DNA of 64,000 nt from Chitinophagaceae bacterium (lineage in GTDB: Bacteria; Bacteroidota; Bacteroidia; Chitinophagales; Chitinophagaceae): the NCBI GenBank assembly GCA_019752045.1, contig JAIEMP010000014.1:1-64000 (forward strand). The letters are read 5' to 3'. Numbering within the stretch: the first letter of the stretch is position 1; each line of letters starts with the position of its first letter. The notes below the pieces were generated by a model. The model made no database searches. It was not told the DNA's origin and worked only from the letters and a program-made list of their open reading frames with translations. Shown here one piece after another: positions 6,049-64,000 of the stretch. The translations under genes were made by a program, and so were the position numbers.

Positions 6049-6051
6049 CGA

Positions 6052-42851: not shown

Positions 42852-42853
42852 GT

Positions 42854-44073: not shown

Positions 44074-44079
44074 TTAACT

Positions 44080-45082: not shown

Positions 45083-45090
45083 ACAAACAG

Positions 45091-45126: not shown

Positions 45127-45147
45127 ATCAAACAAAAATTTACAACT

Positions 45148-46890: not shown

Positions 46891-46912
46891 TATAGTATCT
46901 TTTATGGCAGGT

Positions 46913-47326
46913 TTATTTATTTTCAACTGCTTTTAACCGCCAGGTTAATTTTTCTATCTGTTGTTTTAGTAGTTCTATTTGTTTATTCAACTGCTGTGTA
47001 GCACAATTATTGAGCGTTGTTAACGAATTACAATCCACATTCAATAAATCGGTTACTTTTTCTGTAAACCAGAACCATTGCTAATTTCATCGTTGTATTT
47101 GTAGCCCGTTATTTCTATTTGGCTTAAAACCGCTAAACCTTTTTATTGGTAATGTTCTTATATTTTTTGATGCACATCTGATGTGGGAATAAATCCGCCG
47201 CCGTTTGCCCATATCTAACTATCAGTACAAATAACAATGCTTCCAGCCGCAGTTGATTACCTCAATGCCTTTACAGGCAGGCACCAGCAGTTTATCGTTT
47301 GCCGGCAGTAGTAACTGATGGTTCAT
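46913..47326 (-). pseudogene. Decayed gene of a small secreted-operon protein
   Basis: On the minus strand ATG 47326 opens NHQLLLPANDKLLVPACKGI and stops after 34 residues. Another frame ends the region with a coiled coil (ATQQLNKQIELLKQQIEKLT, then WRLKAVENK and a stop at 46913). Between them frames are broken. It appears to be one gene ruined by several indels, lying between the paralogue operon and the T9SS gene on the same strand. Confidence 0.45.
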
Positions 47327-47361
47327 AAAATAATAGTTTTAAATTTGCTGCAGGCATACAG

Positions 47362-48228: not shown

Positions 48229-48255
48229 ACTATTTTTATTTGATGAGAATGATTG

Positions 48256-49122: not shown

Positions 49123-49144
49123 ATTTTTTTTAAGAGAATAATTG

Positions 49145-49996: not shown

Positions 49997-50002
49997 TTTG
50001 GT

Positions 50003-50146
50003 TTATTTTAAAGTAGAGTTATTTATTTGTTCATCCAGCCTGTTTATCCGCTGCCTGCTTTTCCATAGCATGACTGATATCACAAAAAACAACACTGCAA
50101 CGATCAGCAGCCAGATATTTTTTTGAATTGAATCACGGAGCTTCAT
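50003..50146 (-). CDS. Small single-pass membrane protein (47 residues)
   Basis: ATG 50146 to the stop at 50003 gives 47 residues: a short charged start (KLRDSIQKN), one hydrophobic helix (IWLLIVAVLFFVISVMLW) and a basic helix (KSRQRINRLDEQINN). The gene is six bases from the start of paralogue 3, so it heads that operon. No homologue is known to me. The hydrophobic helix followed by positive charges predicts a cytoplasmic C-terminus. Confidence 0.5.
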   Translation of the reverse strand: MKLRDSIQKNIWLLIVAVLFFVISVMLWKSRQRINRLDEQINNSTLK

Positions 50147-50194
50147 AACCTGCACAAACTACAATACGAAAGAAGGGTACACCAAGAAAACACC

Positions 50195-50235
50195 GCTGCA
50201 AAAGGGCTGCAAGGGGTGCTGCAAAAACGCTGCAA
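50195..50235 (-). promoter_or_regulatory. Four phased TTGCAGC repeats upstream of the paralogue operon
   Basis: GCTGCAA occurs on the plus strand at 50195, 50206, 50218 and 50229, that is TTGCAGC on the minus strand at spacings of 11, 12 and 11. The nearest copy is 48 bases from the operon start codon. The arrangement looks like two operator pairs of the TnCAG-N6-TnCAG type. It may serve the OmpR-type regulator or another protein binding the same helix face. Confidence 0.5.
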
Positions 50236-50278
50236 TTGATAAGTTAAACGAGAAATTGAGGGTTTACATGATTAACCG

Positions 50279-50309
50279 CCGTCAGGGTTTAAACCGCTGA
50301 CGGTTTTTT
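50279..50309 (+). terminator. Inverted repeat with T-run (plus-strand orientation)
   Basis: CCGTCAG (50279-50285) pairs with CTGACGG (50297-50303), followed by six Ts on the plus strand. It lies just after the end of the leftward regulator gene, whose own strand has no T-run after the hairpin, so its role as that gene's terminator is doubtful. Confidence 0.4.
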
Positions 50310-50326
50310 ACCAGCTGCCGGAATTA

Positions 50327-52036
50327 CTAAAGATTTTTTATAAAAAATTCCAGTGCATCCGGCTGTATGTTGTCAGAGGTTATACCCAACCGCTGCCGCA
50401 GCCTTGTTTTATTTCCCCTTACACTACTTAAACTTATGCCTTGCATGGAGGCCATTTGTTTATTATCTAATCCAAGGCGGATGAGGGCCGCCAGCCTGAT
50501 TTCAGCAAGTGTTATATCAGGCGACTGCTGCCGCAGTTTTTCAAAAAAACCAGGATGTGCTTTTTCAAACAGGGTTTTAAAATTATTCCAGTCATCATCG
50601 GTTAATATGGTTTGATGGATGAGTTCATCTGTTTGCTGTTCTTCCATTTTTGAAATACGGCCGGTAAGTTGTTCAATCTGTTCATTTTTCTCCAGCAGGG
50701 TTTGGGTAAACAGGTGCAGTTGTTGGGTTGCAGATGATGCCTTCTCGTCTGCAATTTGCTTTTGCTGCAGCACCAGTTTATATTTCAGTTTTTGCCGGCT
50801 TATGAAAAGCCAGCCAGCCAGTAACAGCACCGCCAGGCTGCCCATCAAAAAATTAAACCGTAACTGTTCGGTTTTCTTTTCTTTCAGCACCAGGTTATAA
50901 CTGTTCTGGTTATTTTCAAAATCAAGCCGCAGTTTTAGCTGTTCATAATTAGTGCGGTTAATAACGGTATTAACAGAATCATTCTGCTGCTGGTGCAATT
51001 GTAAATAATAAAAAGCTGAATCGTAACTGCCGGTGGTTTGAAGAAACCGGGCTTTAATTTTGTAAATCACAATCCTGTCAAGCAGCCGCTTATTTAACTG
51101 CAGTGCTTTGGTAAGTAATGCAGCAGCTTCAGTTTTCTTTCCTGTACCTGTGTAATACTCAGCTAAAAACGCCATAGTAAGCCCGGCATTGCCTGGCTCA
51201 TTGTATTTTAAACAACTGTCAATATCCTGCTGCCACAGTGCCACAGCATCAGCGGCACGGTTTTTCATTCTCAACACATCACCTATATTACCTGCTGCAA
51301 TACCCACCCACACACCATTGTTTTGCAGGCGGGCCACCTGCATGGTTTTATCAAAATAAAAAATAGCAGAATCATAATTACCCAATACCCTGAAACTTAA
51401 TGCTGTATTATTATACAGGCCAATGGCATTTTCATTGATATCTTTTATTGCCCTTGAACGGATAATATCCCGGCAATAACTAAGGCATTGGCCATAATTG
51501 TGTGTGGTATATAAGTAAGAGGATGTGTATAGCTTATTGCGGCTGAGAAATGAGCTATTGTAATTTAATTTCTCTGCCAGTTCAATAGCTTTCAGGTTAT
51601 AAAAGAGCCCTTTTTCCAAGTTGCCGCTTTCAAGATGATAAAAAGCATTTATAAAACAGGCAGACATAAGCAGGTGTTCATCTCCCAGTTCATTTGCATT
51701 TTGCACTACTTTTTTACACCAATCATCGCAGTTCAACCCTTCAAACGGCCTCCAGTATGCATGTGCCATTTTTGCCTTAAGCAAGTTAATTTTTGCAGTT
51801 AACAATTTACCAGGTGATGCCCCAGCTTCTTTCACTATCAGTTGGAGCGACTGTACCCTGTAATTGCTATCCTGTAAAAGCCATTCCTTCCATATACGGT
51901 CAGTGGCAGCAGCAGAATCGTTATATGGAGTTTTCAACATGGCCAGCCAGCGGCCAAAATCAGATTTACTTTGTGCTTTTACCTGCAGAAAAGCCGAGAG
52001 ATAAAATAAAAATAAAGCAGCCTTAGGATGTAACAT
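50327..52036 (-). CDS. TPR-containing membrane regulator with LuxR-like C-terminal DNA-binding domain
   Basis: A 569-residue protein. A signal peptide (FLQVKAQ) is followed by about 350 residues of TPR-type helical pairs (LGNYDSAIFYFDKTMQVARL is representative), a membrane helix near residue 395 (FLMGSLAVLLLAGWLFI), a coiled coil, and a C-terminal helix-turn-helix (SPDITLAEIRLAALIRLGLD, then NKQMASMQGISLSSVRGNKT). This layout places the TPR domain in the periplasm and the DNA-binding domain in the cytoplasm, so it acts as a one-component sensor-regulator. Its probable targets are the secreted paralogue operon immediately downstream on the same strand. Confidence 0.85.
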   Translation of the reverse strand: MLHPKAALFLFYLSAFLQVKAQSKSDFGRWLAMLKTPYNDSAAATDRIWKEWLLQDSNYRVQSLQLIVKEAGASPGKLLTAKINLLKAKMAHAYWRPFEGLNCDDWCKKVVQNANELGDEHLLMSACFINAFYHLESGNLEKGLFYNLKAIELAEKLNYNSSFLSRNKLYTSSYLYTTHNYGQCLSYCRDIIRSRAIKDINENAIGLYNNTALSFRVLGNYDSAIFYFDKTMQVARLQNNGVWVGIAAGNIGDVLRMKNRAADAVALWQQDIDSCLKYNEPGNAGLTMAFLAEYYTGTGKKTEAAALLTKALQLNKRLLDRIVIYKIKARFLQTTGSYDSAFYYLQLHQQQNDSVNTVINRTNYEQLKLRLDFENNQNSYNLVLKEKKTEQLRFNFLMGSLAVLLLAGWLFISRQKLKYKLVLQQKQIADEKASSATQQLHLFTQTLLEKNEQIEQLTGRISKMEEQQTDELIHQTILTDDDWNNFKTLFEKAHPGFFEKLRQQSPDITLAEIRLAALIRLGLDNKQMASMQGISLSSVRGNKTRLRQRLGITSDNIQPDALEFFIKNL

Positions 52037-52208
52037 AACGGGCTGTAATATACAAAAAGGCTGCTAACTGGTTACCAGTATTCCTTAACTTTAAAACATA
52101 TGTTTTGCGTTACATTTAATTAATAATAAAAGGCCCAATACTTACTGTGTAACAGAAATTTGGTTTTATAGATTCTGCCATTAAATGGTTAGGAAAAAGC
52201 TTGTTTAT

Positions 52209-52487
52209 TTAAGATAGTTTATAAACCATCAATCCCCAATTTAATCCCAGCAAAACACTCTTATTAATCGCAATATTTGTATTCGGTGCATCATACCAAT
52301 TTCCTTCACTAGTCTTGCATAATTTATAAGTTTCGCCTGTAGAAGAAGTAATAAAGTATTCATCTAAAACAGCAACAGCTGCACCTAAAATATTTTTTAT
52401 TTCTACCTGCTTTCTGGTATAAGAAAACTGGTTGTTATCGCCAAAATTAATCTGCCTAATTTCTTCAGTCTTTATATCCATTTCCAT
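52209..52487 (-). CDS. Hypothetical 92-residue protein
   Basis: No family recognised. The protein is small, soluble, mixed alpha/beta in appearance (IRQINFGDNNQFSYTRKQVE, AVAVLDEYFITSSTGETYKL). It has no signal peptide. It lies alone between the regulator gene and the mobilization region. Confidence 0.45.
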   Translation of the reverse strand: MEMDIKTEEIRQINFGDNNQFSYTRKQVEIKNILGAAVAVLDEYFITSSTGETYKLCKTSEGNWYDAPNTNIAINKSVLLGLNWGLMVYKLS

Positions 52488-52660
52488 GTAGTAAAAATAA
52501 CCATTCTTAAGTAAATGAAACTTTATGTATTGCCTGACTAAATATTAGCCAAGCAAACAGCAATACTGGTACAGATTTTACACCTGTTATTCTATGAATT
52601 TGCAATGGCATAAAATATTCTCAACGAATAGATTTTGTAAAGGCATAATGTGCCGTGTCT

Positions 52661-52737
52661 TGCACATGGCAAGATGTACAAACGTTATACGTTTGGGGCA
52701 TCTTGCCCTTCACTCCGAAGTCGTTTCGGGGTATTGA
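52661..52737 (+). other. Nested inverted repeats, candidate origin of transfer (oriT)
   Basis: GGCAAGATG (52668-52676) and CATCTTGCC (52699-52707) form a perfect nine-base inverted repeat. It encloses CAAACGT/ACGTTTG (52679-52685 and 52689-52695) with a three-base loop. A third hairpin, CCGAA/TTCGG, follows at about 52714-52728. The mobilization genes start 19 bases further on. Nested hairpins directly upstream of a MobC/relaxase pair are the usual layout of oriT. The nick site cannot be placed. Confidence 0.55.
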
Positions 52738-52755
52738 AACAGAAAACTTAAAACT

Positions 52756-53151
52756 ATGAAGAAGTTAGAAAGTGAAGTGAGGAGTAAAATGGTGGTGGTA
52801 AGGATGAATGAAAGGGAGATAAATCAGCTTACAAAGTTGCAGGAAAAAACTACTGAAAAAGATACCAGTGCTTACTTGCGGAAAGTGGCTTTGCAAAAAC
52901 CAGTTACAGTAAAGTACAGAAACGAAAGTGCCGATGATTTTTTGTTGGATATGCTAAGCCTGAAAAAAGAACTCAACGCCATCGGCAATAATTATAACCA
53001 GGCAGTACACAAGCTGCATCTACTTGATAAAATACCAGAGTTCAGGGTTTGGGTACAACAGTATGACGGATTACAGAAAGTATTAATCAGCAAAGTGGAA
53101 GAAATAAAATTACGGATGAATCAACTCTATGAGCAATGGTTGCAAAAATAA
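52756..53151 (+). CDS. MobC-like relaxosome accessory protein
   Basis: A 131-residue protein with a ribbon-helix-helix-like N-terminus (MVVVRMNEREINQLTKLQEK), then the family motif AYLRKVALQKPV, a helix with LKKELNAIGNNYNQAVHKLH, and a charged C-terminal helix. This matches plasmid mobilization proteins that bind oriT and help the relaxase. Its 3' end overlaps the relaxase start by 16 bases, so the two are translationally coupled. Confidence 0.85.
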   Translation: MKKLESEVRSKMVVVRMNEREINQLTKLQEKTTEKDTSAYLRKVALQKPVTVKYRNESADDFLLDMLSLKKELNAIGNNYNQAVHKLHLLDKIPEFRVWVQQYDGLQKVLISKVEEIKLRMNQLYEQWLQK

Positions 53152-54407
53152 CTACTCCAAAAAGTATAGAAGCTGCATTGAACTATAACGAAAAGAAAGT
53201 GCAGAAGGGAAATGCTGTTTGTCTTCATGCCGCCAATTATCTGAAAGAAGCGAAGAACATGAACTTTTATCAAAAACTTTCCGGCTTTGAAAGACTAAAT
53301 AGTTTGAACGAAAGAGCTACTACCAAAACCCTGCATGTATCATTAAACTTTGACCCTTCAGAAAAACTATCAGAAAACCAGTTGTTGCAGATTGCATCGG
53401 ACTACATGCAAAAGATTGGGTTTGGCAATCAACCCTACTTAGTTTACAAACATGAAGATGCAGGGCATCCGCACATACACATTGTTAGCACCACCATCAA
53501 ACAAGATGGTAGCAGGATTAACACCCACAACATTGGAAGAAACCAAAGTGAAAAAGCAAGAAAGGAAATTGAGAAACAATACAGTTTAGTAAAAGCAGAA
53601 AGACAGCAACAGTTATTGAAGCCTGGAATTAAACCTGTGGATGTAGAGAAAGCCATCTATGGAAAGTCAGAAACTAAGAGAAGTATTTCAAATATAGTCG
53701 GTGCAGTTTTCAGTCAATACAAGTTTACTTCCTTACCTGAATTTAATGCAGCACTAAAACAATTTAATGTAGTTGCAGACAGAGGCAAAGAAGAAGGCAG
53801 AATTTACAAAAACCGTGGATTGGTTTATCGCATTTTAGATGCCAGTGGAAATAAGGTAGGTGTTCCAATCAAAGCAAGTTCTATTCCCTGCAAGCCAATA
53901 CTTTCGAATCTGGAAAAGAAATTTGCAGATAATGAAACAGCAAAAGAATCCCTCAAACCATTTGTAAAAATCAAACTGGATGACTGTCTTTCACAATCGC
54001 CTTCTACAATCAAAGAATTGATGGAGCATTTGAAGCAGAAGAACATCTACACTGTGCTTCGCCAAAATGCTGAATGCCGATTGTACGGTATCACTTTCGT
54101 AGATAATCAAAACAAAGTTGTTTTTAACGGTAGCGATTTAGGAAAAAGTTACAGTGCTGCGGCATTACAAAGCAGGTTAGCTACAGGCACTGAAAAATCG
54201 CTTAGCAATGATGAAACGAGAAGCGGTAGTTCCGGTAGTTCCATTCAAAAAGAAATGACACAACAAAAACAACATGATAAGAAAATACCTATCACTACAA
54301 AAACGGCAAGTCCGTTAGATATTTTGCTATCCACAAAAGAGCAATACGATAACATACCCAACAGCCTGCTTAAAAAGAAACGCAAAAAGAAGAAACCAAA
54401 TTTATAA
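53136..54407 (+). CDS. Relaxase (MobA/VirD2-like mobilization nuclease)
   Basis: A 423-residue relaxase. The metal-binding three-His motif is HEDAGHPHIHIV (His106, His111, His113, His115), and the N-terminal segment ALNYNEKKV (Tyr17) contains a candidate nucleophile. Residues 60-120 form the nuclease core (TTKTLHVSLNFDPSEKLSEN). The C-terminus is Lys-rich (LLKKKRKKKKPNL). The enzyme nicks oriT and pilots the strand to a recipient cell. It is the middle gene of a three-gene mobilization operon. Confidence 0.9.
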   Translation: MVAKITTPKSIEAALNYNEKKVQKGNAVCLHAANYLKEAKNMNFYQKLSGFERLNSLNERATTKTLHVSLNFDPSEKLSENQLLQIASDYMQKIGFGNQPYLVYKHEDAGHPHIHIVSTTIKQDGSRINTHNIGRNQSEKARKEIEKQYSLVKAERQQQLLKPGIKPVDVEKAIYGKSETKRSISNIVGAVFSQYKFTSLPEFNAALKQFNVVADRGKEEGRIYKNRGLVYRILDASGNKVGVPIKASSIPCKPILSNLEKKFADNETAKESLKPFVKIKLDDCLSQSPSTIKELMEHLKQKNIYTVLRQNAECRLYGITFVDNQNKVVFNGSDLGKSYSAAALQSRLATGTEKSLSNDETRSGSSGSSIQKEMTQQKQHDKKIPITTKTASPLDILLSTKEQYDNIPNSLLKKKRKKKKPNL

Positions 54408-54423: not shown

Positions 54424-56382
54424 ATGTCACACACAGGAGAGAATGAACAGGGGCTGCGGAAGATAGTTGACCTGACAAGATTTGCCAGCATTTTTATTTT
54501 GCTGCTTCATTTTTATTATTACTGCTATGTAGCATTTGAGCAATGGGAAATTACAAGCACCATCACAGACAGGCTGATGAAAAACATTTCCAACACTGGA
54601 TTATTTAGTAGCCAATACACTTCTAAATTTTTAGCTATTGGGTTATTGATAATTTCTCTGTTGGGAGCACAAGGAAAGAAAGATGAAAAAATAAACAAAC
54701 GAAGTATCGTAGCTTATCTGCTCATTGGCTTGTTACTTTTCTTTGGCAGTAGTTGGTTGTTCCGTTTAAATGATGATGTTGAAACGGTAGCAATTGTTTA
54801 CATGACAATAACAGGTATTGGTTTTTTATTAATACTGGCAGGCGGTAATTTACTCAGCCGCTTAATCAAATTAAATTTGGGTGATGATGTTTTCAATTCT
54901 CTCAACGAAACTTTTCCGCAGGAAGAACGGCTTATCTCCAACGAATACTCTATTAATCTGCCTGCCCGTTATAACCTCAAAGGAAGGGTAAGGAAAAGTT
55001 GGATAAATATTATCAACCCTTTTCGTGGACTACTGGTAATTGGCAGTCCCGGTTCCGGTAAGAGTTGGTTTGTTATTCAGCATGTCATTAAACAACACAT
55101 TGAAAAAGGCTTTGCGTTGTTCGTTTATGATTTTAAATACGATGACCTTTCTAAGATTGTTTACAACTGGCTGCAGCAAAACAAACACAACTATTCCGTC
55201 AAGCCATCTTTTTATGTAATCAATTTTGATAACCTTTCAGTATCGCACCGCTGCAATCCGCTTGACCCAAATAGTATGAATGACATTACAGATGCAACAG
55301 AAAGTGCCAGAACAATTTTATTGGGATTAAATAGGGAATGGATAAACAAGCAGGGAGATTTCTTTGTGGAGTCACCCATCAATTTTGTTACGGCTGTCAT
55401 TTGGTTTCTGCGAAAATATGATGATGGAAAATATTGCACTCTGCCGCATGTAATAGAATTAATGCAGGCAGAGTATGATGAATTGTTTCCGGTGCTGAAT
55501 ACACAACCTGAAATTGAAGTGCTGGTAAATCCATTTATCACCGCTTATCAAAATGATGCAATGGAGCAATTGGAAGGACAGGTAGCTTCTGCAAAAATTG
55601 GAATGGCAAGGCTTGCTGCACCGCAATTGTATTGGGTATTATCAGGCAATGATTTTACGTTGGACATTAACAACCCAAAGCATCCTAAAATTGTTTGTGT
55701 GGGCAACAACCCGGAGAAGCAGCAGATTTATGGTGCTGTGTTATCATTATATGTTTCCCGGTTGGTAAGGCAGGCAAACAAAAAAGGTATGCAGAAATGT
55801 AGTTTGGTATTTGATGAATTTCCCACTATCTACTTCAATAATATTGACAGCCTGATTGCTACTGCAAGAAGCAATAAAGTTGCCACAACTCTCGCCATGC
55901 AGGATTTTAGCCAACTCAAAAAAGATTATGGCCGGGAACAAGCCGATGTAATTGTAAACATCACCGGAAACATCATTAGCGGCCAGGTGATGGGAGAAAC
56001 TTCTAAACTCTTATCGGAACGTTTCGGAAAAATAATGCAGGACAGGCAGAGTGTATCCATCAACCGGATGGATACTTCCATCAGCCACAGTAAACAATTG
56101 GATGCAGCCATACCTGCCAGTAAAATTGCAGCACTTTCTTCTGGCGAATTTGTGGGTATGGTTGCCGACGACCCGTTAGAAAAAATAAAACTCAAAATGT
56201 TTCATTCCGAAATTATTAACGACCATAAAAAACTAAATGCAGAAGTGAGCAACTACCGGGATATTCCTGCGGTCTGCAATGTTACCCAACAGCAAGTGCT
56301 GGATAATTACTACCAGGTGAAGATGGATATTAAAAGGTTGATTGGGGAGGAAGTTGGGAGGTTGAAGGCGGCATCGAATTAG
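54424..56382 (+). CDS. Type IV coupling protein (TraG/VirD4-like, Bacteroidota MobC type)
   Basis: A 652-residue inner membrane ATPase. Four hydrophobic segments lie before residue 145, Walker A is GSPGSGKSW (from residue 207), and Walker B is SLVFDEFPTIYF. The late part contains TARSNKVATTLAMQDFSQLK, common in these coupling proteins. It passes the relaxase-DNA complex to a mating channel. No other conjugation (tra) genes were seen, so the element is probably mobilizable and depends on a helper. Confidence 0.88.
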   Translation: MSHTGENEQGLRKIVDLTRFASIFILLLHFYYYCYVAFEQWEITSTITDRLMKNISNTGLFSSQYTSKFLAIGLLIISLLGAQGKKDEKINKRSIVAYLLIGLLLFFGSSWLFRLNDDVETVAIVYMTITGIGFLLILAGGNLLSRLIKLNLGDDVFNSLNETFPQEERLISNEYSINLPARYNLKGRVRKSWINIINPFRGLLVIGSPGSGKSWFVIQHVIKQHIEKGFALFVYDFKYDDLSKIVYNWLQQNKHNYSVKPSFYVINFDNLSVSHRCNPLDPNSMNDITDATESARTILLGLNREWINKQGDFFVESPINFVTAVIWFLRKYDDGKYCTLPHVIELMQAEYDELFPVLNTQPEIEVLVNPFITAYQNDAMEQLEGQVASAKIGMARLAAPQLYWVLSGNDFTLDINNPKHPKIVCVGNNPEKQQIYGAVLSLYVSRLVRQANKKGMQKCSLVFDEFPTIYFNNIDSLIATARSNKVATTLAMQDFSQLKKDYGREQADVIVNITGNIISGQVMGETSKLLSERFGKIMQDRQSVSINRMDTSISHSKQLDAAIPASKIAALSSGEFVGMVADDPLEKIKLKMFHSEIINDHKKLNAEVSNYRDIPAVCNVTQQQVLDNYYQVKMDIKRLIGEEVGRLKAASN

Positions 56383-56392
56383 CGACTACTTT

Positions 56393-57181
56393 TTATTTTT
56401 CCCAAATAATACTAATAGTGTAGTTATAAGATTTGGCATGTAAGCAATACTCAAAAAACTTTGAATCAGGTTCATCATCATTTTTCATCTGAAACCAATC
56501 TGACTTCCAAATATCCTGTTTTGATTCATCTCCATAGTATGTTTTCCCTTTTGTAAACACTTCGTAAGCTACTGAGCCTGTTGGTGGCGGTGCATCATAT
56601 TCATAGGGGCAAAAATGGTAAAAGTCATCTGACTTCTTCCACCATTTCATTTTGTTATCCTTACAATACATGATAAAAACAGGATGATTGCCCCGCTTTA
56701 CAAATTTTAAAATGGCGGCAGTCTTACTGACCTGGAAACGGTTAGCCAAATGCTCAATAACTTTCGGTTCAAACTTTTTTCTTTCACACTCTTTATGAAA
56801 AAGTTCAGAAGGCATTAAAAACTCAGCCGCAAATTCGTTGGCTTCCATTTCATGTGGCCCTGCTTTGTACCAGTTCATTAAATCTTCTTCGGTATCGGAA
56901 AAAATGGGCTTTAAATGCCTGTGCATTTCGTAATGTCCTAACTCATGTGCAGCGGCAAACCGCTTTTTTGTTTCAAATTGTATATTGGAGTTGATTGTTA
57001 TTATTGACCTGTTATCTACAGATACTATTTCACCTTCTTTACCCACTAAAGGAACTTCTTCATAGAAAGCTTTTCTTCCAAAAATAATTTTCTTTAATGG
57101 CTCTTCAGTAGGGTCATTTAATCCACATTCATCCAATACTTTTTTTGCTTTATGTTCTGCTGCTGTATATGTGAAATTCAT
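56393..57181 (-). CDS. ImmA/IrrE-family metallopeptidase
   Basis: A 262-residue protein with the zinc motif HELGH (residues 79-83) and the downstream family segment HEMEANEFAAEFLMPSELF, containing the third Glu ligand. Related peptidases cleave repressors or anti-sigma-like partners when stress is sensed, often on mobile elements. The C-terminal 80 residues have no recognised domain. Its start overlaps the previous gene's stop by four bases, completing a three-gene leftward operon with a sigma-like and a helical protein. Confidence 0.88.
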   Translation of the reverse strand: MNFTYTAAEHKAKKVLDECGLNDPTEEPLKKIIFGRKAFYEEVPLVGKEGEIVSVDNRSIITINSNIQFETKKRFAAAHELGHYEMHRHLKPIFSDTEEDLMNWYKAGPHEMEANEFAAEFLMPSELFHKECERKKFEPKVIEHLANRFQVSKTAAILKFVKRGNHPVFIMYCKDNKMKWWKKSDDFYHFCPYEYDAPPPTGSVAYEVFTKGKTYYGDESKQDIWKSDWFQMKNDDEPDSKFFEYCLHAKSYNYTISIIWEK

Positions 57182-57594
57182 TTTTCGCTATTGTTCCGCT
57201 TGTTCATAAACTTCAATGTAAAATGCCGGATAAGAATATTTCTGATATCATCCTGACTGAGATTTTCTACATTCCGGAAACTCACAGAGAGTTCTTCTTT
57301 TTGTACAAGTTCTCGCAAAGAAAAATTGATACTGGCTAATAAATTATCAACCCATAAGGTTGCTTCTTCTTTTACAGTTTCGGCAGCTTGCATTTCATTC
57401 TCAGTTCTGCTGGCATTAGCCAGCATCTGCATTTTCTTAACTCTTTTCAACCCTTCCGAAATCAATTTATCTGTATTTACTCCTTCAGATGCAAGAAATT
57501 CTTTTGCAGCTTCTTTGCTACTGCTATCGTTTTCGGCTGTACTGAGAAACAGGTTTACAAAATCAGATTTACTTTGATTTGTTTTTTTGCTCAT
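57178..57594 (-). CDS. Hypothetical helical protein, partner of the ImmA peptidase
   Basis: A 138-residue protein predicted to be almost all helix (KEAAKEFLASEGVNTDKLIS, RVKKMQMLANASRTENEMQA, DNLLASINFSLRELVQKEEL). It has no signal peptide and no DNA-binding motif that I can identify. Four-base overlaps with both neighbours (sigma-like upstream, ImmA downstream) show strict coupling. In ImmA systems the companion is commonly the cleaved repressor or anti-activator; this one is a candidate substrate. Confidence 0.6.
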   Translation of the reverse strand: MSKKTNQSKSDFVNLFLSTAENDSSSKEAAKEFLASEGVNTDKLISEGLKRVKKMQMLANASRTENEMQAAETVKEEATLWVDNLLASINFSLRELVQKEELSVSFRNVENLSQDDIRNILIRHFTLKFMNKRNNSEK

Positions 57595-58208
57595 ACCGTT
57601 TGTGTGTTTTTGTTGAAATGAGCAGCTGCCCGATTGATAACAGTAGTCAATCGCCGCATTCCGTTGTCAAATACAACTGCTGTCATGGTGAATTCTTCTA
57701 TCACTTCTCTTCGCTTCATACCATAAGTATAGATACCTAAAAAAATATTTTCTGCATCGTTATCTCCCTGCACTTCTTTTTCAATGAATTCTTTGATAGC
57801 ACTATAGTCAATATCATCCGGAAATAATGCTGCTGAGTAAGGTAGCACCCGTTCGGAGTAGGAAGATGAACTGTCTTCTTCATCTTCCTCATTGTCCTCT
57901 GCAAAAATATCATCTGTTTGATTGTTCTCCTTTTTTCGCAGGTCATTGGCAACAAACGACCGTACCAGGTTATATTTTAAATATTCAAGCAACTCACCTT
58001 TGTTAGGGTCAAATTTTTCTGGCTCTTCCAGATATTTGCCAATTGCTGCAAAAACATAGTCTTCTACTTCCTTGCCCATCAGAAAAATAGTGGTTTTTTC
58101 TCCCCTGAACCAAGGTTTCCCTCTTGTCCATGAGCGGGTAAAGGCCGTAAGCCTTAAAATAATTTCTTCCCAGTCTATATGAGTTTGGTTGCCTGTATCT
58201 GTACTCAT
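57591..58208 (-). CDS. Sigma-70-like regulatory protein
   Basis: A 205-residue protein with an N-terminal region reminiscent of sigma region 2 (EVEDYVFAAIGKYLEEPEKF, then GELLEYLKYNLVRSFVANDL), an acidic low-complexity linker (FAEDNEEDEEDSSSSYSERV), and a C-terminal part that could be region 4 (NIFLGIYTYGMKRREVIEEF). The match is approximate. It is transcribed divergently from the ubiquitin-like operon, with 110 bases between start codons containing a 10-base inverted repeat. Confidence 0.5.
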   Translation of the reverse strand: MSTDTGNQTHIDWEEIILRLTAFTRSWTRGKPWFRGEKTTIFLMGKEVEDYVFAAIGKYLEEPEKFDPNKGELLEYLKYNLVRSFVANDLRKKENNQTDDIFAEDNEEDEEDSSSSYSERVLPYSAALFPDDIDYSAIKEFIEKEVQGDNDAENIFLGIYTYGMKRREVIEEFTMTAVVFDNGMRRLTTVINRAAAHFNKNTQTV

Positions 58209-58228
58209 TTATCACCTGTTCATGTTAG

Positions 58229-58292
58229 TATATGTTGGTAAAATAGTTTTTTTTACGGCCACCTGCAAAAAAAACCTGTCAGCCAACATATA
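58229..58292. promoter_or_regulatory. Inverted repeat between the divergent operons
   Basis: TATATGTTGG (58229-58238) and CCAACATATA (58283-58292) are perfect complements, 44 bases apart, each close to one start codon. ACCTG also recurs three times between 58214 and 58280. The symmetry suggests an operator shared by the sigma-like/ImmA operon and the ubiquitin-like operon. Confidence 0.5.
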
Positions 58293-58318
58293 GTAGGTAT
58301 AAACAAACTTTTATAAAA

Positions 58319-58867
58319 ATGGAAAAAGAAACAGAAAACTTAGGGGGTAAGGAACCCCATGAGGAAATCATTGATGTGGAGGCTTACACAAAAGAAGGTA
58401 AAAAGCCCCCGGTTGGTAAGAAGTATAAGGTAAAAATTGACGGTCATCACTACACCTTCGACCACCATCTTGTAACTGGCAAGGAGCTATTGGAAAAAGC
58501 TGGAATTACTCCACAGGAATGTTTTTGGCTATACCAAAAATTAAAAGACTGTGAATTTGAAAAAATTGACCTTACTGAAAAGGTTGATTTATCAAAGGGC
58601 GGTGTTGAACATTTTGTGGTGAAACCAACCGAAGTGTTTAATTACTTCGTGGATAACGAGCCGGAAACTACCGACCAAAAGGAACTAACACCGAACCAGA
58701 TGTTGGAAGCCGCTGGATTAACACCTGTGGCTGACTATTACCTTGTAAAAATTAATCCGGATGGTAGCCAGACTTCCCTTAAAGACAGCCCAAATACACC
58801 GTTAAAAATGGTATGCCCGGCTGTAAAATTTATTTCCGCCTTCAGGGGTGAAACCAATGTATCTTAA
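58319..58867 (+). CDS. Protein with two ubiquitin-like domains (multiubiquitin type)
   Basis: A 182-residue protein. After a polar start, residues about 34-104 form one ubiquitin-like domain (KKYKVKIDGHHYTFDHHLVT, ITPQECFWLYQKL, VEHFVVKP) and about 120-177 a second, with the same helix beginning (LTPNQMLEAAGLTP matches LVTGKELLEKAGITP). The pattern is that of bacterial multiubiquitin proteins. The C-terminus is FRGETNVS, without a terminal Gly-Gly, so it would need trimming or a different linkage. The E2-like gene begins 10 bases downstream. Confidence 0.75.
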   Translation: MEKETENLGGKEPHEEIIDVEAYTKEGKKPPVGKKYKVKIDGHHYTFDHHLVTGKELLEKAGITPQECFWLYQKLKDCEFEKIDLTEKVDLSKGGVEHFVVKPTEVFNYFVDNEPETTDQKELTPNQMLEAAGLTPVADYYLVKINPDGSQTSLKDSPNTPLKMVCPAVKFISAFRGETNVS

Positions 58868-58877
58868 AAGTTAGCGT

Positions 58878-59246
58878 ATGGCAAAATTAGACTTCATCAA
58901 TCAATTGCAGGCTCTTCACTATTCAGTGCAGGAGCCTGCTCCTGATTTTGTATCATTTGAGTACGAAATTCCAGTTGGCAAATTTAGCGGGCAAAAAGTA
59001 TGGATGGGATTACAGGTACTTGACAGCTTTCCAATGAATGCTCCACCGGGGCCTCATTTTAAACCACATCTTTTACCTGTATCCGGCGGTGGTGGTGTGC
59101 ATCCATACGGAGCCATACATGCAAGTCCATTAGGTGCGGAATGGCAATACTGGAGCAGGCCATTTAATAATGAATGGAACAGAACAGATAAAACTGTGAA
59201 ATCTTATTTGGCACATATCAGAAATTTATTTGCAACTATTGTATGA
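58878..59246 (+). CDS. E2/UBC-like protein lacking any cysteine
   Basis: A 122-residue protein with the layout of bacterial E2-like proteins. An N-terminal helix is followed by strands (FVSFEYEIPVGKFSGQKVWM), a GPHFKP stretch, and the active-site-like HPYGAIHASPLG (His75-Pro76, His81), then the conserved-looking EWQYWSRPF and a C-terminal helix. Where E2 enzymes have their catalytic Cys a few residues after HPN, this protein has IHAS, and there is no Cys anywhere in it. It overlaps the next start codon by four bases (ATGA). Confidence 0.7.
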   Translation: MAKLDFINQLQALHYSVQEPAPDFVSFEYEIPVGKFSGQKVWMGLQVLDSFPMNAPPGPHFKPHLLPVSGGGGVHPYGAIHASPLGAEWQYWSRPFNNEWNRTDKTVKSYLAHIRNLFATIV

Positions 59247-60769
59247 AAACATTTAGCGTAGTAATGACCGATGAAACTCATCAACGGCTTTTTGACCATT
59301 TGATTCGTGAAGATGAGCAGGAAGACCTTTGCTTTGCAACCTATGTACCCAGCAGTGGTGTCAACCGTAGTACTGGAATAGTTTCGCAAATAATATTGCC
59401 TGAAGAAGATGAAAGAAATGTTCACGGCAACGTGGGCTTTCTGCCAAATTATTTTGAAAGAGTGCTGAAGATAGCCGCTGAAAGAAAAGAAGGGATTGCG
59501 TTTTTGCATTCTCATCCCTCGTCAGGCTGGCAGGGAATGAGTGACGATGATGTGATAGCAGAAACAAGAATATCTCCTTCAGTAATGGGACTTACAGGCT
59601 TGCCATTATTAGGCTTAACGTTGGGAACAGATGGTGCCTGGAGTGGACGGTTTTGGATAAAGGATGAAAAAGAAAAAAGAAAATATAATCGTTATTGGTG
59701 TGATACAGTAAGGGTGATTGGGAAAAAGTTAAGCATTACATTCAACGATTATTTATTGCCGCCAATTTTTGATTCTGCAAAACAATTGCGGACAATTTCC
59801 GCATGGGGAAGTAAAACCCAGGAAGATTTGTCCCGTTTAAAAATTGGGATTGCAGGCTTAGGCAGTGTGGGTAGTATTGTCGCAGAAATATTGGCAAGAA
59901 CGGGTATTGCTAATTTTACACTCATTGACTTTGATGCCGTAGAAGAAAAAAACCTTGACCGCCTCACCAATGTTTTTAAAGAAGATATTGGAAGAGCTAA
60001 AGTGTTAGCTGTAGCGGATGGAATACGCAAAAGTGCTACCGCTCCTAAAGTAAAAATTACTTCTTGTGAATACAGTATATGTGAAAAACAGGGATTTGAA
60101 GCAGCGTTAGATTGCGACATCATCTTCAGTTGTGTAGATAGACCCTGGCCCCGTCAGGTACTTAATTTCATTGCCTATGCACACTTAATACCTGTTATTG
60201 ACGGGGGCATATTGGTTCGTACCAATAAACGAAATACAAATATCATTGGCGCAGACTGGAAAGCACAAACAGTTGGCTACAAAAGAGCCTGCCTGAAATG
60301 TTTAGGCCAGTATAAAACTGAAAATGCGGTACTGGAAATAAGCGGTAAGCTGGATGACCCTGAATATATCAAGGGATTGGATAAGTCCAAATTTTTGGAT
60401 GCCCATGAAAACGTATTTGCGTTTAGTTCCCATCTTGCTTCGATGGAAGTATTACAAATGCTGACGCTTTTTATTGCGCCATCTGGCATAGCCGATGTGG
60501 GGCAACAGCTATATCATTTTGTTTTAGGTACAATGGATATTGATAGTAATAAAGAATGTCATGAGAATTGTTTCTTCCCTTCCGTACTTGGCAAAGGCGG
60601 CCTTGCAGGTGTAACCGTTTATGCTGAGCATAAAATTGCTGAAGCTGCGAGGGAAATGAGAGTTAGGGAAAATTCTTTTAATCAAGTTGGAGAAGTTAAG
60701 TATAGTGAAACTGGCAAATCAATTTTTTTAAGAATTAAAGAATTCTTTAGGCAAGTCTTTAAATCCTGA
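59243..60769 (+). CDS. JAMM-protease/E1-like adenylating enzyme fusion
   Basis: A 508-residue protein with two domains. Residues about 1-145 form a JAB/MPN isopeptidase-like domain with the JAMM motif HSHP...SDDD (His89, His91, Ser100, Asp103). Residues about 180-430 form a ThiF/E1 adenylation domain with GLGSVG (205-210), IDFDAVEEKNLDR (acidic Asp and Arg finger), FSCVDRPWPR (Cys297) and a CxxC pair (Cys350, Cys353) of the zinc site. E1 enzymes adenylate ubiquitin-like C-termini; JAB domains cut them. Having both in one chain suggests it processes, activates and recycles the neighbouring ubiquitin-like protein. Confidence 0.88.
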   Translation: MKTFSVVMTDETHQRLFDHLIREDEQEDLCFATYVPSSGVNRSTGIVSQIILPEEDERNVHGNVGFLPNYFERVLKIAAERKEGIAFLHSHPSSGWQGMSDDDVIAETRISPSVMGLTGLPLLGLTLGTDGAWSGRFWIKDEKEKRKYNRYWCDTVRVIGKKLSITFNDYLLPPIFDSAKQLRTISAWGSKTQEDLSRLKIGIAGLGSVGSIVAEILARTGIANFTLIDFDAVEEKNLDRLTNVFKEDIGRAKVLAVADGIRKSATAPKVKITSCEYSICEKQGFEAALDCDIIFSCVDRPWPRQVLNFIAYAHLIPVIDGGILVRTNKRNTNIIGADWKAQTVGYKRACLKCLGQYKTENAVLEISGKLDDPEYIKGLDKSKFLDAHENVFAFSSHLASMEVLQMLTLFIAPSGIADVGQQLYHFVLGTMDIDSNKECHENCFFPSVLGKGGLAGVTVYAEHKIAEAAREMRVRENSFNQVGEVKYSETGKSIFLRIKEFFRQVFKS

Positions 60770-60916: not shown

Positions 60917-62044
60917 TCAGCCCAACAACTTCCCTAGTTCATCGGTATCAGGCAATATCCCTTTCATTTGCACAGGCGTTTGTTTAGAGGTTTTATAAGT
61001 AGCTACTCCCATAGCTTTGTCAAAACTCTTAATGGCAAACTCAACCACTGTATTATTTTTTTCTTTGCAAAGCACAATGCCAATGCTGCTATTTTCCTGT
61101 TGCAGTTTTACTTTTTCATCCAGCACATTCAGGTAAAAATTTAGCTGCCCGGCATCGGCTGGTTTAAATTTCCCTTTTTTTAATTCAAAAGCAACCAGGC
61201 ATTGCAGGTGCCGGTTAAAAAAGAGCAGGTCAATATAAAACTCATCGCCATCCACTTCAAGCCGGTACTGGTTACCGATAAAACAAAAACCTTTGCCCAT
61301 TTGTAAAATAAAATTCCGGATGTTTAAAACCACTTGCTGTTCAATATGGCGTTCATCATCCAGTTCATCACCAGCAATAAAGTCCAGCAGGTATTCATCC
61401 TTAAAAACTTTTAGTGCAGAGGGCTTCAGGCTTTCTGCTAAAGTGCCGTCAAAATTATTGGGCAGTTTGCCTTCCTTTCTAAACAGGTCGTTTTCAAGAT
61501 GATGTTCCAGTACCGTCAGCGACCAAAAATTGACTGCCGCAGACTGGATATAGAAAATCCGGGCTTCCCAGCCCTTTATTTTGGTGATAATTGTAAAATG
61601 GTGGGAGAAGCTAATGCCCGTAAAAGCGGCATAGAAGGCCTTGTTTTCAATTAGGTTCGACAGTGTCGAACTAATTGAAAAACCTTCTCCGGTACCAGCC
61701 AGCCCAAATTGGTTCGACAGTGTCGAACCAATTACCAGATGGGGGGCATAAGCCTCTGCAAACAACCTTATCTTTTTAAGGTTTCCCGGCGAGAAGCCCT
61801 TTAAGCCTGGTAGTTCCTTTTGCAGATCCGCCGAAATTTGGTCAAGCACTTTGGCACCCCATTTTTGGGCTTTTATCTTCTCTGAAATCATAAGACCAGT
61901 CCTGAAGTAAAGTATCAGTTGCTCCTGGTTAGCCAGCCTGGTCGCTGCGTAACGGCTTTGCACAATTTGTTGCTTAATGGATTGGATAAATTCTATATAA
62001 GATTTATCAAGGGCTTTTTTTATTGTTGCTTTCATATTTTTCAT
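60917..62044 (-). CDS. DUF1016 (YhcG-type) PDDEXK nuclease protein
   Basis: A 375-residue protein with the N-terminal helical YhcG region (RYAATRLANQEQLILYFRTG) and a C-terminal PDDEXK nuclease domain (DEFYIDLLFFNRHLQCLVAF, then ELKKGKFKPADAGQLNFYL, with Asp and ExK). Members occur on mobile elements and near restriction systems. The region of residues about 105-135 contains two in-frame copies of the peptide STLSN, encoded by identical 17-base palindromes. These may be insertions; the flanking YhcG segments are otherwise normal. 147 bases without clear features separate it from the ubiquitin-like operon. Confidence 0.87.
   Translation of the reverse strand: MKNMKATIKKALDKSYIEFIQSIKQQIVQSRYAATRLANQEQLILYFRTGLMISEKIKAQKWGAKVLDQISADLQKELPGLKGFSPGNLKKIRLFAEAYAPHLVIGSTLSNQFGLAGTGEGFSISSTLSNLIENKAFYAAFTGISFSHHFTIITKIKGWEARIFYIQSAAVNFWSLTVLEHHLENDLFRKEGKLPNNFDGTLAESLKPSALKVFKDEYLLDFIAGDELDDERHIEQQVVLNIRNFILQMGKGFCFIGNQYRLEVDGDEFYIDLLFFNRHLQCLVAFELKKGKFKPADAGQLNFYLNVLDEKVKLQQENSSIGIVLCKEKNNTVVEFAIKSFDKAMGVATYKTSKQTPVQMKGILPDTDELGKLLG
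61647..61728. repeat. Two identical palindromes inside the DUF1016 gene
   Basis: GTTCGACAGTGTCGAAC occurs at 61655-61671 and 61712-61728, each a perfect palindrome around a central G and extended by flanking complementary bases to arms of 13-16. The copies are 57 bases apart (19 codons), so the frame is kept. Confidence 0.9.
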
Positions 62045-62052: not shown

Positions 62053-63417
62053 TTAAGCAATAAAATCAGTTTGCATCATTGGCACTTTCTTAAAAGAAGT
62101 TAGCCTTTTTGCAAATTCCTTTTTCACATCTTTATCAAAACTGTCCAAATAGTTTTCAGTAGTTTTTAAATCTGTATGGCCAAGTGCTTCCTGTATGAAT
62201 ACAGTACTGGCACCGGACCGTTTGAGAACAGTAGAGAAAGTATGTCTTGCAACGTAGGTGGTAGCTTTTTTATCAATACCTAAATTTTTAAAAATGCGCT
62301 TCATCCAGTCGTTTATAAATCCAACAAAATTTTGAATGAGTTCATATTGACGCAGAGGAGACAATCCATCCTGTAGTATTGGAAATAAATAATTACTTGA
62401 AGATTTATTTTTATTTCCCAATCGTTCAATTATTTCTTTCATATCATCCGTAAGAAAAATAGTAATTGGCTTTGGGTCACTTCTCAATGAACGTTCTGTT
62501 TTAGAACGCTCAAATGTTAGATAGTCGCCATCAATGTTTTTATACTTCAGGTTTGCAATATCTTTTGGGTTCATACCATTACCAAAATAACTGAACAGCC
62601 AATAGTCCTTTGCTTGTTGCTCACCAGTTAATTCAGGATTGCATTCATAGAAATATATTTTTTCAACTTCTGACAGTTCAAGTGCTTTCTTTACATTTTT
62701 TGATGTTGGGATTCTATATTTACGTTTGCCAAAAGGATAACACTTTTCCCGTTTGATAATACCATCCTCTATTGCCTCATTAAAGATGGCCCGGAGTGGC
62801 CGCAGGTATATACCAATGGTGGTTTTCGAGATATCCTGACTTTTCAGCCAGTTCTCGTACTCTTTGAGGTAGGTGGAAGTAATGATTGTAAACGGTACAT
62901 CGCCCCTGAATTTCTTTAATGATACATAACTGCAATGATAACTGATAGCACTGCTAATTCTGCTTTCCCGGATTAACTGCTTAATGTATTTGAGGTAGGA
63001 AAAAGAAATTATCCCAGACTTACCAAACGTTTCAGTTAATAGCGGCAACTTTTTGTAAAAGGGGGTGTAATTAAATTCATCTCCATTTGGAGTAGTTAAT
63101 TCAGCTTTAAAATTTCTTTGGCGAAAGTGTGCATTGCCTTTTATGAAATCTTTTTCAAACTCTGTAAAATTAAAAGGGGCTAATTCTTTCACAGCATTTT
63201 CAGCCTTCCTTTCAATTTCTTTCAGTTTATCTCTTACACGCTGCAATTCATTACTGATTCTTGAAGCAGGCAGTTTTTCCCATTCTTCTTTTGACAGGTC
63301 AAAAGTAGTTGGATAATATTCAGTAACACGTTGAAAAGTTACCCTTAATTTTACGGGGTATTTTTCTAATTTTTTCATCCTCCGTGTATCGAGGATGATG
63401 GAAATTGTTGTTGACAT
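62053..63417 (-). CDS. Tyrosine recombinase (site-specific integrase)
   Basis: A 454-residue integrase. The N-terminal arm-binding and SAM-like core-binding domains (FSYLKYIKQLIRESRISSAI, KTTIGIYLRPLRAIFNEAIE) precede the catalytic domain. Catalytic residues seen are Arg in ARHTFSTVL, His in ALGHTDLKTT and the nucleophile Tyr in TENYLDSF. The first Arg, normally in a T/A-R-G motif, is replaced by Asn (FGNGMNPKDIANL), a feature I have the impression recurs in some Bacteroidota integrases. It is 207 bases from a tRNA-Arg 3' fragment, which should be its attachment site. Confidence 0.9.
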   Translation of the reverse strand: MSTTISIILDTRRMKKLEKYPVKLRVTFQRVTEYYPTTFDLSKEEWEKLPASRISNELQRVRDKLKEIERKAENAVKELAPFNFTEFEKDFIKGNAHFRQRNFKAELTTPNGDEFNYTPFYKKLPLLTETFGKSGIISFSYLKYIKQLIRESRISSAISYHCSYVSLKKFRGDVPFTIITSTYLKEYENWLKSQDISKTTIGIYLRPLRAIFNEAIEDGIIKREKCYPFGKRKYRIPTSKNVKKALELSEVEKIYFYECNPELTGEQQAKDYWLFSYFGNGMNPKDIANLKYKNIDGDYLTFERSKTERSLRSDPKPITIFLTDDMKEIIERLGNKNKSSSNYLFPILQDGLSPLRQYELIQNFVGFINDWMKRIFKNLGIDKKATTYVARHTFSTVLKRSGASTVFIQEALGHTDLKTTENYLDSFDKDVKKEFAKRLTSFKKVPMMQTDFIA

Positions 63418-63473
63418 AATTTATGATTTTCGTTATCTCCATTCATTCCCACATCATAAATCACCAATGATGA

Positions 63474-63523
63474 ATTTGCAAACAATTTGCAAACAAACCA
63501 CTATTAAAACAGTATTTACTGTT
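63474..63523. repeat. Tandem and inverted repeats upstream of the integrase
   Basis: ATTTGCAAACA occurs twice in perfect tandem (63474-63484, 63485-63495). AACAGTA/TACTGTT (63508-63514 and 63517-63523) is a palindrome with a two-base spacer. They lie between the integrase start and the tRNA fragment, the usual place for arm-type integrase or excisionase binding sites. Confidence 0.5.
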
Positions 63524-63623
63524 GCAAAGAGAAAAAAGCAATTTCCATGCAACAATTTGAAATTAAATAGTTTAGGTTAAAATCAGTAAAAGCAGATTAA
63601 ACTAAGAAAAGTATATTTTCCAA

Positions 63624-63666
63624 CTACGGATCAGAAGGTTTCAGGTTTGAATCCTGACGCGGTCAC
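63624..63666 (+). other. Attachment site: 3' part of tRNA-Arg(ACG)
   Basis: From 63624 the sequence fits the anticodon loop CTACGGA (anticodon ACG), the 3' side of the anticodon stem (TCAGA), the variable region, a T-arm with stem TCAGG/CCTGA and loop TTTGAAT, and a 3' acceptor strand CGCGGTC followed by the discriminator A. The 5' half of the tRNA is missing here, so this is a duplicated 3' end left by integration. The rest of the tRNA was not found in the window. Confidence 0.7.
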
Positions 63667-63699
63667 AAAACCCTTTAGCAAAAGCTAAAGGGTTTTTTT
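63667..63699 (+). terminator. tRNA terminator
   Basis: Perfect 13-base stem AAAACCCTTTAGC/GCTAAAGGGTTTT (63667-63679 with 63684-63696), AAAA loop, continuing Ts. It directly follows the tRNA-Arg 3' end. Confidence 0.9.
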
Positions 63700-63726
63700 A
63701 TTAATAAATTTTATAGTTAGAGCTCT

Positions 63727-64000
63727 TCACTCATCCAACCCAAATGCAAATAAAGTAGCGCTCCCGGTAACCATGCCCATAGCACTGGTGCTGGCCATTA
63801 AAAAAATATATTCACCGGCTGGCAGCTTTTTATCCAATACCAGCTCCCAGTAACCATCTTTTATTTTCTTTACACTAAATCCCATTTGAACACTGGACTT
63901 TATTTTTTTACCGCCAAAGGGTAACATGCCGGGTGTTTTCATCAGGTAAATTTTTCGTTGTCCTTTTGAAGTTTCGCTCCTGTATAATGTAATTGAACCG
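63727..64000 (-). CDS. Hypothetical protein (5' partial, C-terminal part)
   Basis: The minus-strand frame is open to the right edge, upstream of the internal ATG at 63942. The visible 90 residues include the strand-rich stretch FSVKKIKDGYWELVLDKKLP and a hydrophobic segment (AGEYIFLMASTSAMGMVT). They end FAFGLDE. I do not recognise the family. It is the first gene beyond the element's attachment site, so it should be ordinary chromosome. Confidence 0.6.
   Translation of the reverse strand, partial: GSITLYRSETSKGQRKIYLMKTPGMLPFGGKKIKSSVQMGFSVKKIKDGYWELVLDKKLPAGEYIFLMASTSAMGMVTGSATLFAFGLDE

Follow-up and report, generated by a model that had tools for sequence, protein, structure and literature searches.

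Organization of the Bub Locus

The DNA analyzed here is a stretch of 64,000 nucleotides from a Chitinophagaceae bacterium (GCA_019752045.1, contig JAIEMP010000014.1), which is referred to as the window. It contains a complete Bub operon (58319-60769) consisting of bubA, bubB and a fused bubCD gene, as identified by sequence or fold matches of the three proteins to solved Bub proteins (Table 1). An earlier reading made from the DNA letters without database searches (the sequence-only reading) had proposed a complete ubiquitin-like conjugation module on a mobile element, and its three open reading frames (ORFs) were confirmed, including the ATGA by which the bubB and bubCD frames overlap. Three further overlapping genes (56393-58208) diverge from bubA and encode a predicted extracytoplasmic function (ECF)-like sigma factor, a protein of 138 amino acids (aa) with a CapH-like tail and a CapP-type protease, which together would act as a switch for the Bub operon. 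Because this divergent cassette, overlooked in the sequence-only reading, belongs to the module, the module is larger than first described.

Table 1. Predicted genes and features of the Bub locus and of the mobile element around it (window positions).
Feature	Position	Strand	Description or evidence
BubA	58319..58867	+	182 aa; two ubiquitin-like (beta-grasp) domains; C-terminus ...RGETNVS, without diglycine
BubB	58878..59246	+	122 aa; ubiquitin-conjugating (UBC)-fold E2 without cysteine; invariant S93 in WxxWSR motif
BubCD	59243..60769	+	508 aa; JAB/JAMM domain fused to E1 (ThiF) adenylation domain; two cysteine pairs
Predicted ECF-like sigma factor	57591..58208	-	205 aa; two-domain model, Foldseek and profile matches in relatives
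Presumed anti-sigma factor with CapH-like C-terminal tail (presumed CapP substrate)	57178..57594	-	138 aa; PADLOC capH, fusions
CapP-type M78 metallopeptidase (HELGH)	56393..57181	-	PADLOC capP, phmmer, Pfam
Intergenic region, presumed bidirectional promoter	58209..58318	.	110 bp; approximate dyad symmetry
Promoter-like motif TGCAAAAA-N-AACAT	58264..58289	+	Faces Bub operon
Inverted arm ATATGTTGG of promoter-like motif	58230-58238		
MobC-like protein	52756-53151	+	Pfam MobC_2 43.4 bits
MobA/VirD2-type relaxase	53136-54407	+	Pfam Relaxase 106.9 bits
TraG/VirD4-like conjugative coupling ATPase	54424..56382	+	Pfam T4SS-DNA_transf 80.7 bits, TraG-D_C 53.1 bits
YhcG-type PDDEXK nuclease, far side of cargo	60917..62044	-	Pfam YhcG_C 181.8 bits
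Tyrosine recombinase (integrase)	62053..63417	-	Pfam Phage_integrase 59.6 bits, Phage_int_SAM_5 68.3 bits

Identification and Conservation of the Bub Proteins

BubA matched the Pfam family Multi_ubiq (58.5 bits; cut-off 24.5), and a phmmer search against PDB sequences returned solved BilA, BubA and multi-ubiquitin proteins (best E 1.2e-6). The duplicated ubiquitin-like pattern described earlier holds, partly by indirect evidence, as Pfam scores the first repeat only; the second repeat aligns with single-domain homologues, and the phmmer match of BubA to a multi-domain ubiquitin-like protein (Ubl) covers both repeats. BubCD matched Pfam ThiF (107.7 bits; cut-off 28.1), and its top phmmer match among PDB sequences is the BubCD protein of Citrobacter (9ea4; E 3.7e-21, residues 6-328), with D103 aligned to the residue that is mutated in a deposited BubCD D104A variant. 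The JAB domain of the window BubCD gave no Pfam match. BubB scored 26.8 bits with Pfam Prok-E2_E, barely above the cut-off of 25, and a direct phmmer search of PDB sequences returned no relative of it; its link to E2 and Bub proteins is therefore made through the Prok-E2_E match, a Rhizobium homologue (L011) and the fold. The AlphaFold2 model of BubB has a mean pLDDT (predicted local distance difference test score) of 94.7, and the best 50 of its 462 Foldseek matches are mostly UBC-fold E2s or their complexes, plus four AMPK rows. Citrobacter BubB (9eae) ranks 17th (TMt 0.59, 22% identity), and none of the matches listed has E <= 0.001. A Prok-E2_B profile run on the window's own genome gave no match; the controls were equally silent, and this E2 family had been mischosen. 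The ubiquitin-like, UBC and E1/JAB assignments of the sequence-only reading are thus supported by profiles and solved relatives, and for the E2 also by the model.

As a ThiF-family E1 with cysteine pairs, BubCD might also be taken for a sulfur-transfer enzyme, like ThiF or MoeB, with BubA as sulfur carrier and not as protein tag. This is highly improbable: the Ubl lacks a GG end, the closest solved relative of the E1 is BubCD, ahead of MoeB and ThiF, and the presence of a UBC-fold E2 and a JAMM domain in the same operon led us to reject sulfur-carrier activation.

Genome contigs were scanned with six JAB-E1 proteins and the best 80 of 128 relatives were retained; together with the window, locus L013 and six plasmid loci these 80 genomic loci form a set of 88. 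A Ubl gene and an E2 adjoin BubCD in all 80 retained genomic loci, and this recurrence of the three-gene set is far beyond chance. In the extended set a Ubl was found in 86/88 loci and an E2 in 87/88, with E2 domains masked in the counting of Ubls so that ORFs with fused Ubl and E2 cannot mislead; a profile seeded from the second BubA repeat alone also found a Ubl gene in 86/88 loci. The profile did not match the Ubl of L011, though its record annotates a multiubiquitin gene, and neither Ubl nor E2 was matched in the haloarchaeal L012. Fusions of BubA and BubB are common in part of the family, with Ubl and E2 in a single ORF in L040, L041, L045, L056, L058, L065, L066, L067, L077, and L128. 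No DUF6527 gene was matched near the window operon or in L013 by a single-sequence profile, which also misses the annotated copy in L011.

Catalytic Residues of the Bub Proteins

The JAMM residues and the GxGxxG adenylation loop that had been pointed out in BubCD are conserved across the 88 aligned JAB-E1 proteins. E27, H89 and H91 are present in 88/88 proteins, D103 in 87/88 and S100 in 76/88; in the loop, G205 and G207 are present in 88/88 and G210 in 87/88, and further adenylation residues (D229, D231, N237, R240, K253, and D299) are each found in 88/88. The cysteines, of which the sequence-only reading had mentioned a CxxC pair, are C350 (87/88), C353 (86/88), C439 (80/88), and C443 (85/88).

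For the E2, 54 of the 87 proteins found were aligned. S93 of BubB, located in the WxxWSR motif, is the sole residue that is invariant in all 54. Cysteine is absent from the window BubB and from 27/54 aligned E2s; BubB is therefore not a conventional thioester E2, which refines the earlier E2-like label. Bub conjugation reportedly proceeds via oxyester intermediates, as Ye et al. are said to have described in 2026. The invariant S93 fits this chemistry and is a putative active-site nucleophile. The absence of cysteine would also suit a BubB that is a non-catalytic scaffold, with transfer directly from the E1; we regard this as quite unlikely in view of the serine invariant in 54/54 E2s and of the oxyester intermediates said to occur in the Bub mechanism.

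In most BubA relatives the C-terminus is a conserved tail of the xTPV[S/A] type instead of GG. Among 81 ORFs labelled BubA the C-terminus is VS in 44 and VA in 10, and several others are Ubl-E2 fusions or have short extra tails. The window BubA ends at the conserved tail and therefore appears to be produced in mature form; the JAB domain of the window would then serve mainly deconjugation.

Five other loci (L048, L051, L052, L057, and L075) have BubA ORFs with a few residues beyond the VS end, as if they need trimming by JAB. In addition, three Bub loci that closely resemble those of Bacteroidota come from genomes binned as Williamsia sp. E01 (L019 and L064) and Rickettsiales (L029), the JAB-E1 proteins of L019 and L029 being 78% and 64% identical to the window protein; these labels reflect either wrong binning or recent transfer.

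The Divergent Genes Encode a Predicted Sigma Factor, a CapH-Tailed Protein and CapP

The product of the protease gene matched PADLOC capP (222 bits, E 1.6e-66), solved CapP (7t5t; phmmer E 5.6e-15) and Pfam Peptidase_M78 (70 bits). The structure model of the predicted sigma factor (mean pLDDT 66.6) has two helical domains (residues 13-92 and 135-197) with a low-confidence linker between them. In a Foldseek search with this model, sigma-factor structures or complexes, including SigH, RpoE with NepR and AlgU with MucA, make up 25 of the 28 first rows, when chain F of mycobacterial initiation complexes is counted as sigma (probability up to 0.98, best E 0.046). The TIGR02937 profile (sigma70-ECF) matched 5/11 members of the sigma family at E <= 1 (best 9e-7), and two distant members pass the Pfam Sigma70_r2 cut-off of 24 (L127, 27.5 bits; L128, 24.7 bits). 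Sigma regions 2 and 4 can thus be recognized for the family by the two-domain model together with the profile matches of relatives.

The gene for the 138-aa protein overlaps the sigma gene by 4 bases. PADLOC capH matched its product weakly (E 0.0042, residues 80-133) and matched 8/10 members of its family at E <= 1 (best 2e-6); the L060 and L061 members, scanned singly, gave no capH match at E <= 0.1. No helix-turn-helix (HTH) family was found in the window protein by Pfam, and no relatives were found in viral contigs (two peptide patterns). Two loci encode the family's N-terminal domain directly joined to an M78 peptidase (L110, E 5e-14; L069, E 9e-6); the CapH-like tail is missing from both fusions, and each adjoins a sigma gene. 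These fusions suggest that the N-terminal domain may handle the sigma factor and that the tail may couple it to a separate protease.

The Cassette Recurs Next to Different Immune-Type Operons

The family profile of the 138-aa protein was run on 396, 395, and 395 partly overlapping genomes at order, class and phylum level, respectively. A match was found in 17 genomes, and in 15 of these a sigma-like gene and an M78 protease lie alongside the family gene; two of the 15 (G000 and G305) were in the seed alignment, and in G034 the M78 protease and the family's N-terminal domain form a single fused protein. The other two genomes (G370 and G713) have weak matches without a cassette.

Recognizable immune-type operons flank 12 of the 15 cassettes, or 10 of 13 without the seed members. 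Three cassettes adjoin a Bub operon with Multi_ubiq and JAB-E1 genes (G000, G305, and G1003), and two adjoin an operon with Multi_ubiq, DUF6791-ThiF and DUF6527 genes that was taken as Bub-related (G027 and G034). Three lie beside cyclic-oligonucleotide-based antiphage signaling system (CBASS) operons (G728, G667, and G941; SMODS E 1.4e-24, 3.3e-11, and 1.3e-22), and one lies beside an E2-ThiF-JAB protein (G1044), where a 386-aa neighbor looks metallo-beta-lactamase-like by eye and gave no Pfam match. Another three adjoin Bil-like operons with Ubl, DUF7665, JAB and ThiF genes (G313, G088, and G140); this label follows gene order, as the Ubl, JAB and ThiF scores in L107 are below the Pfam cut-offs. 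In Bil operons E1 and JAB are encoded separately. The Bil set of Ubl, E2, E1 and JAB resembles that of the window, and the same control cassette stands beside the Bil-like operons of L107-L109; there E1 and JAB are separate genes, in contrast to the single fused ORF (59243-60769) of the window.

A cassette on a Nocardioides plasmid (L010), consisting of a sigma factor that is genuine by Pfam, a 222-aa protein and an M78 protease, was not counted with the family, its sigma factor and small protein being only 15% and 24% identical to those of the window (MAFFT). A second sigma-like lineage of approximately 212-265 aa, read by eye and partly scanned, was seen upstream of bubA in L026, L028, L031, L032, and L048. 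Here a different small gene (approximately 116-118 aa) follows the sigma gene in L026, L028, and L032, a CapP of 271 aa is present in L028, L031, and L032, and Pfam Sigma70 matches are weak in L031 and L032 and lacking in L028. In L048 the presumed anti-sigma factor (5616-6440, minus strand) is fused to a longer domain that is Panacea-like by eye and unconfirmed by Pfam. Other genes were seen next to Bub operons. In L046 a gene upstream of bubA (5958-6959, plus strand) encodes a protein that combines an HTH with a SocA/Panacea domain (Pfam 79 bits); L035 has a gene for a LexA repressor (Peptidase_S24, LexA_DNA_bind; 6672-7274, minus strand), and L063 has one for a STAS-like DUF4325 protein beside a weakly matched GHKL-type ATPase (5664-7179, minus strand).

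The Intergenic Region Carries an Approximate Dyad and a Promoter-Like Motif

The region between the sigma gene and bubA shows approximate dyad symmetry, with 24/38 symmetric pairs, and the observed symmetry was reached by 0/200 dinucleotide shuffles. When 18 sigma regions were tested in the same way, in 8 of them 0/200 shuffles reached the observed symmetry. From the sigma regions a promoter-like pattern was composed, [CTG][GC]CAAAAA-N(8-17)-(AACA[TG] or GCAT), with promoter-like spacing and on one or both strands. It is present in 15/22 sigma regions and in 0/71 other loci; with three later loci, all motif-free, the count is 15/25. The 71 controls are Bub-type loci in which no family sigma gene was found, including L010 with its other sigma lineage and the distant L011 and L012. 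The second sigma lineage is outside the 22, 25 and 71 loci, and the motif is absent from it. A slightly stricter motif, used in a first pass with cruder regions, was found in 6/11 sigma loci, in 0/72 others and in 39/3994 tiles of 400 bases. The Fisher value for 22 versus 71 loci (2e-12) is only descriptive, because the pattern was composed after viewing the sequences, the loci are related and base composition differs.

A dyad of this kind suits a dimeric repressor, and the capH matches cover most of the profile in three relatives (L078, L117, and L120), so that the 138-aa protein might instead be a diverged form of CapH, which would repress by binding the intergenic dyad and would be cut by CapP; the sigma-like gene would then be an extra activator or a passenger. 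We consider this unlikely. No HTH family was found in the window protein, in its relative in L013 or in the Nocardioides counterpart, whereas the capH profile strongly recognizes the HTH-containing CapH of Bub locus L036 (E 2.9e-19). Moreover, the small gene and the sigma-like gene are neighbors in 15/17 genomes, and the promoter-like motif accompanies the sigma gene.

The Operon Is Cargo of a Mobile Element

The mobile context proposed in the sequence-only reading is borne out by the genes for MobC, relaxase, coupling ATPase and tyrosine recombinase around the operon. Locus L107 shares this backbone (relaxase 73%, TraG 90%, and YhcG 86% identical), and its cargo between the TraG-like gene and yhcG is a Bil-like operon together with a control cassette of this kind, in opposite orientation. 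Two further related elements carry Bub: L021 (relaxase 71%, TraG 90%, YhcG only 32% identical) and L018 (part of TraG 98%, YhcG 93% identical). The slot therefore seems to be a site where Ubl-conjugation cargoes replace one another, each bringing a switch of its own. The window integrase had no match in any of six loci compared. No exact 14-mer direct repeat was found between 63400-64000 and 40000-53000 and no tRNA was found in the window that would mark the ends of the element. Downstream of the cassette in L107 (7688-11327, plus strand) lie genes for an M78 peptidase in which a macro domain may be present (below cut-off), for a protein that resembles adenylosuccinate synthetase (204 bits) and is kinase-like in its N-terminal part, and for a DUF7002 protein that matched DarT weakly; genes in L110 are similar by eye.

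The operon might also be non-defensive and be on the mobile element by chance; it would then label host proteins in a general response to DNA damage or stress. According to a 2026 study of Bub operons, phage protection by them has so far not been demonstrated, and Bub may mediate global stress responses (PMC13373217). At the sensitivity used, JAB-E1 relatives were found neither in phage records (E limit 1e-10) nor in viral contigs (two peptide patterns per search). We nevertheless find this explanation doubtful, as the same control cassette also accompanies immune-type operons such as CBASS, and in L107 the same mobile backbone has a Bil-like operon as its cargo. The benefit of Bub tagging is most likely anti-phage or general stress defense, judging from the company of the cassette.

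Proposed Control of the Bub Operon by Sigma Release

From predicted structures, profile matches and gene order, the explanation that we favor with moderate confidence is a sigma-factor switch attached to a Bub operon, in which the sigma factor, its CapH-tailed inhibitor and CapP control bubA-bubB-bubCD. In unstressed cells the 138-aa protein would bind and silence the sigma factor. DNA damage or phage attack would generate single-stranded DNA, which would activate CapP, and activated CapP would cut the CapH-like tail of the 138-aa protein and free the sigma factor. The freed sigma factor would then drive both arms of the symmetric intergenic promoter, and thereby its own operon as well as bubA-bubB-bubCD. 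BubCD would adenylate the C-terminus of BubA, BubA would be handed on to a target protein by way of an ester with S93 of BubB, and the target would be freed of BubA again by the JAB domain.

Several results weigh against this explanation. The Foldseek search with the sigma model gave no match with E <= 0.001, the window protein alone is above no Pfam or NCBIfam cut-off, and the sigma family profile returned only chance matches and no sigma chain from PDB sequences. The profile of the 138-aa family likewise gave only chance matches to PDB sequences and no solved relative, and the capH matches of some relatives reach the N-terminal half of the profile, so that a diverged DNA-binding repressor is possible. 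Among the cassettes, the sigma gene of G562 (L119) was assigned by position and by eye, with no family hidden Markov model (HMM) or Pfam sigma match, and that of G605 (L118) matches the family HMM and no Pfam sigma family. The neighbors of three cassettes were not recognized as a known immune system (G562, with a KAP NTPase operon, G605, and G712), and no M78 protease was recognized in the L060 and L061 loci, which have the sigma and small genes. Several loci show little or no dyad symmetry (L022, L060, L110, L107, and L020 are unremarkable), and the promoter-like motif, composed after viewing sequences of related loci, is lacking in 10/25 sigma loci, including all three added last.

The CapH+CapP controllers provide the closest comparison. 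CapP is activated by single-stranded DNA and CapH is cleaved (PMC13373217, PMC10904395), and in Bub operons CapW or CapH+CapP was reported in 219/544 and CapK+CapS in 59/544 (PMC13373217). The window resembles these controllers in having a CapP-type M78 protease and a partner with a CapH-like tail, divergent from an immune-type operon. The partner differs from CapH in that no HTH was recognized in it and in its coupling to an ECF-like sigma factor, and for this reason control probably works through release of the sigma factor and not through derepression. The published CapH+CapP counts may already include some of these sigma cassettes. A precedent for sigma release is the CalpL/CalpT/CalpS system of type III CRISPR immunity, in which a protease cleaves an anti-sigma factor and frees the sigma factor during the immune response, as proposed for the window; the Calp protease is a Lon-SAVED protein activated by cyclic tetra-adenylate (cA4), in contrast to the M78/CapP-type protease of the window (PMC12751052).

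The operon itself shares with the Citrobacter proteins BubA, BubB and BubCD the combination of a Ubl, a UBC-fold E2 and a JAB-E1 fusion, and the association of Bub operons with CapH+CapP has been published (PMC13373217). The window differs in its two-domain BubA with an xTPVS-type end and in its predicted control by a sigma-factor cassette. The operon is thus of the known Bub type, and the sigma-based control would be a new variation on known controllers. No description of a sigma/CapH-tail/CapP cassette was found in the open literature, supplementary datasets aside, that connects sigma factors to CapP, CBASS or phage defense. We put it at slightly better than an even chance that this cassette represents a general, previously undescribed class of damage-sensing controllers in Bacteroidota and neighboring groups, which would release a dedicated sigma factor by CapP proteolysis and be exchanged as a whole among Bub, Bil-like, CBASS and E2-E1-JAB operons, many copies having their own bidirectional promoter.

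The Bub gene set thus travels as mobile cargo with its own switch, which suggests a sigma-based counterpart to the damage-sensing controllers CapW, CapH+CapP and CapK+CapS. If this is true, such operons could be tested by switching on a single small sigma factor, without guessing the trigger, and the function of Bub would become directly testable. The cassette could also mark new immune operons in searches.

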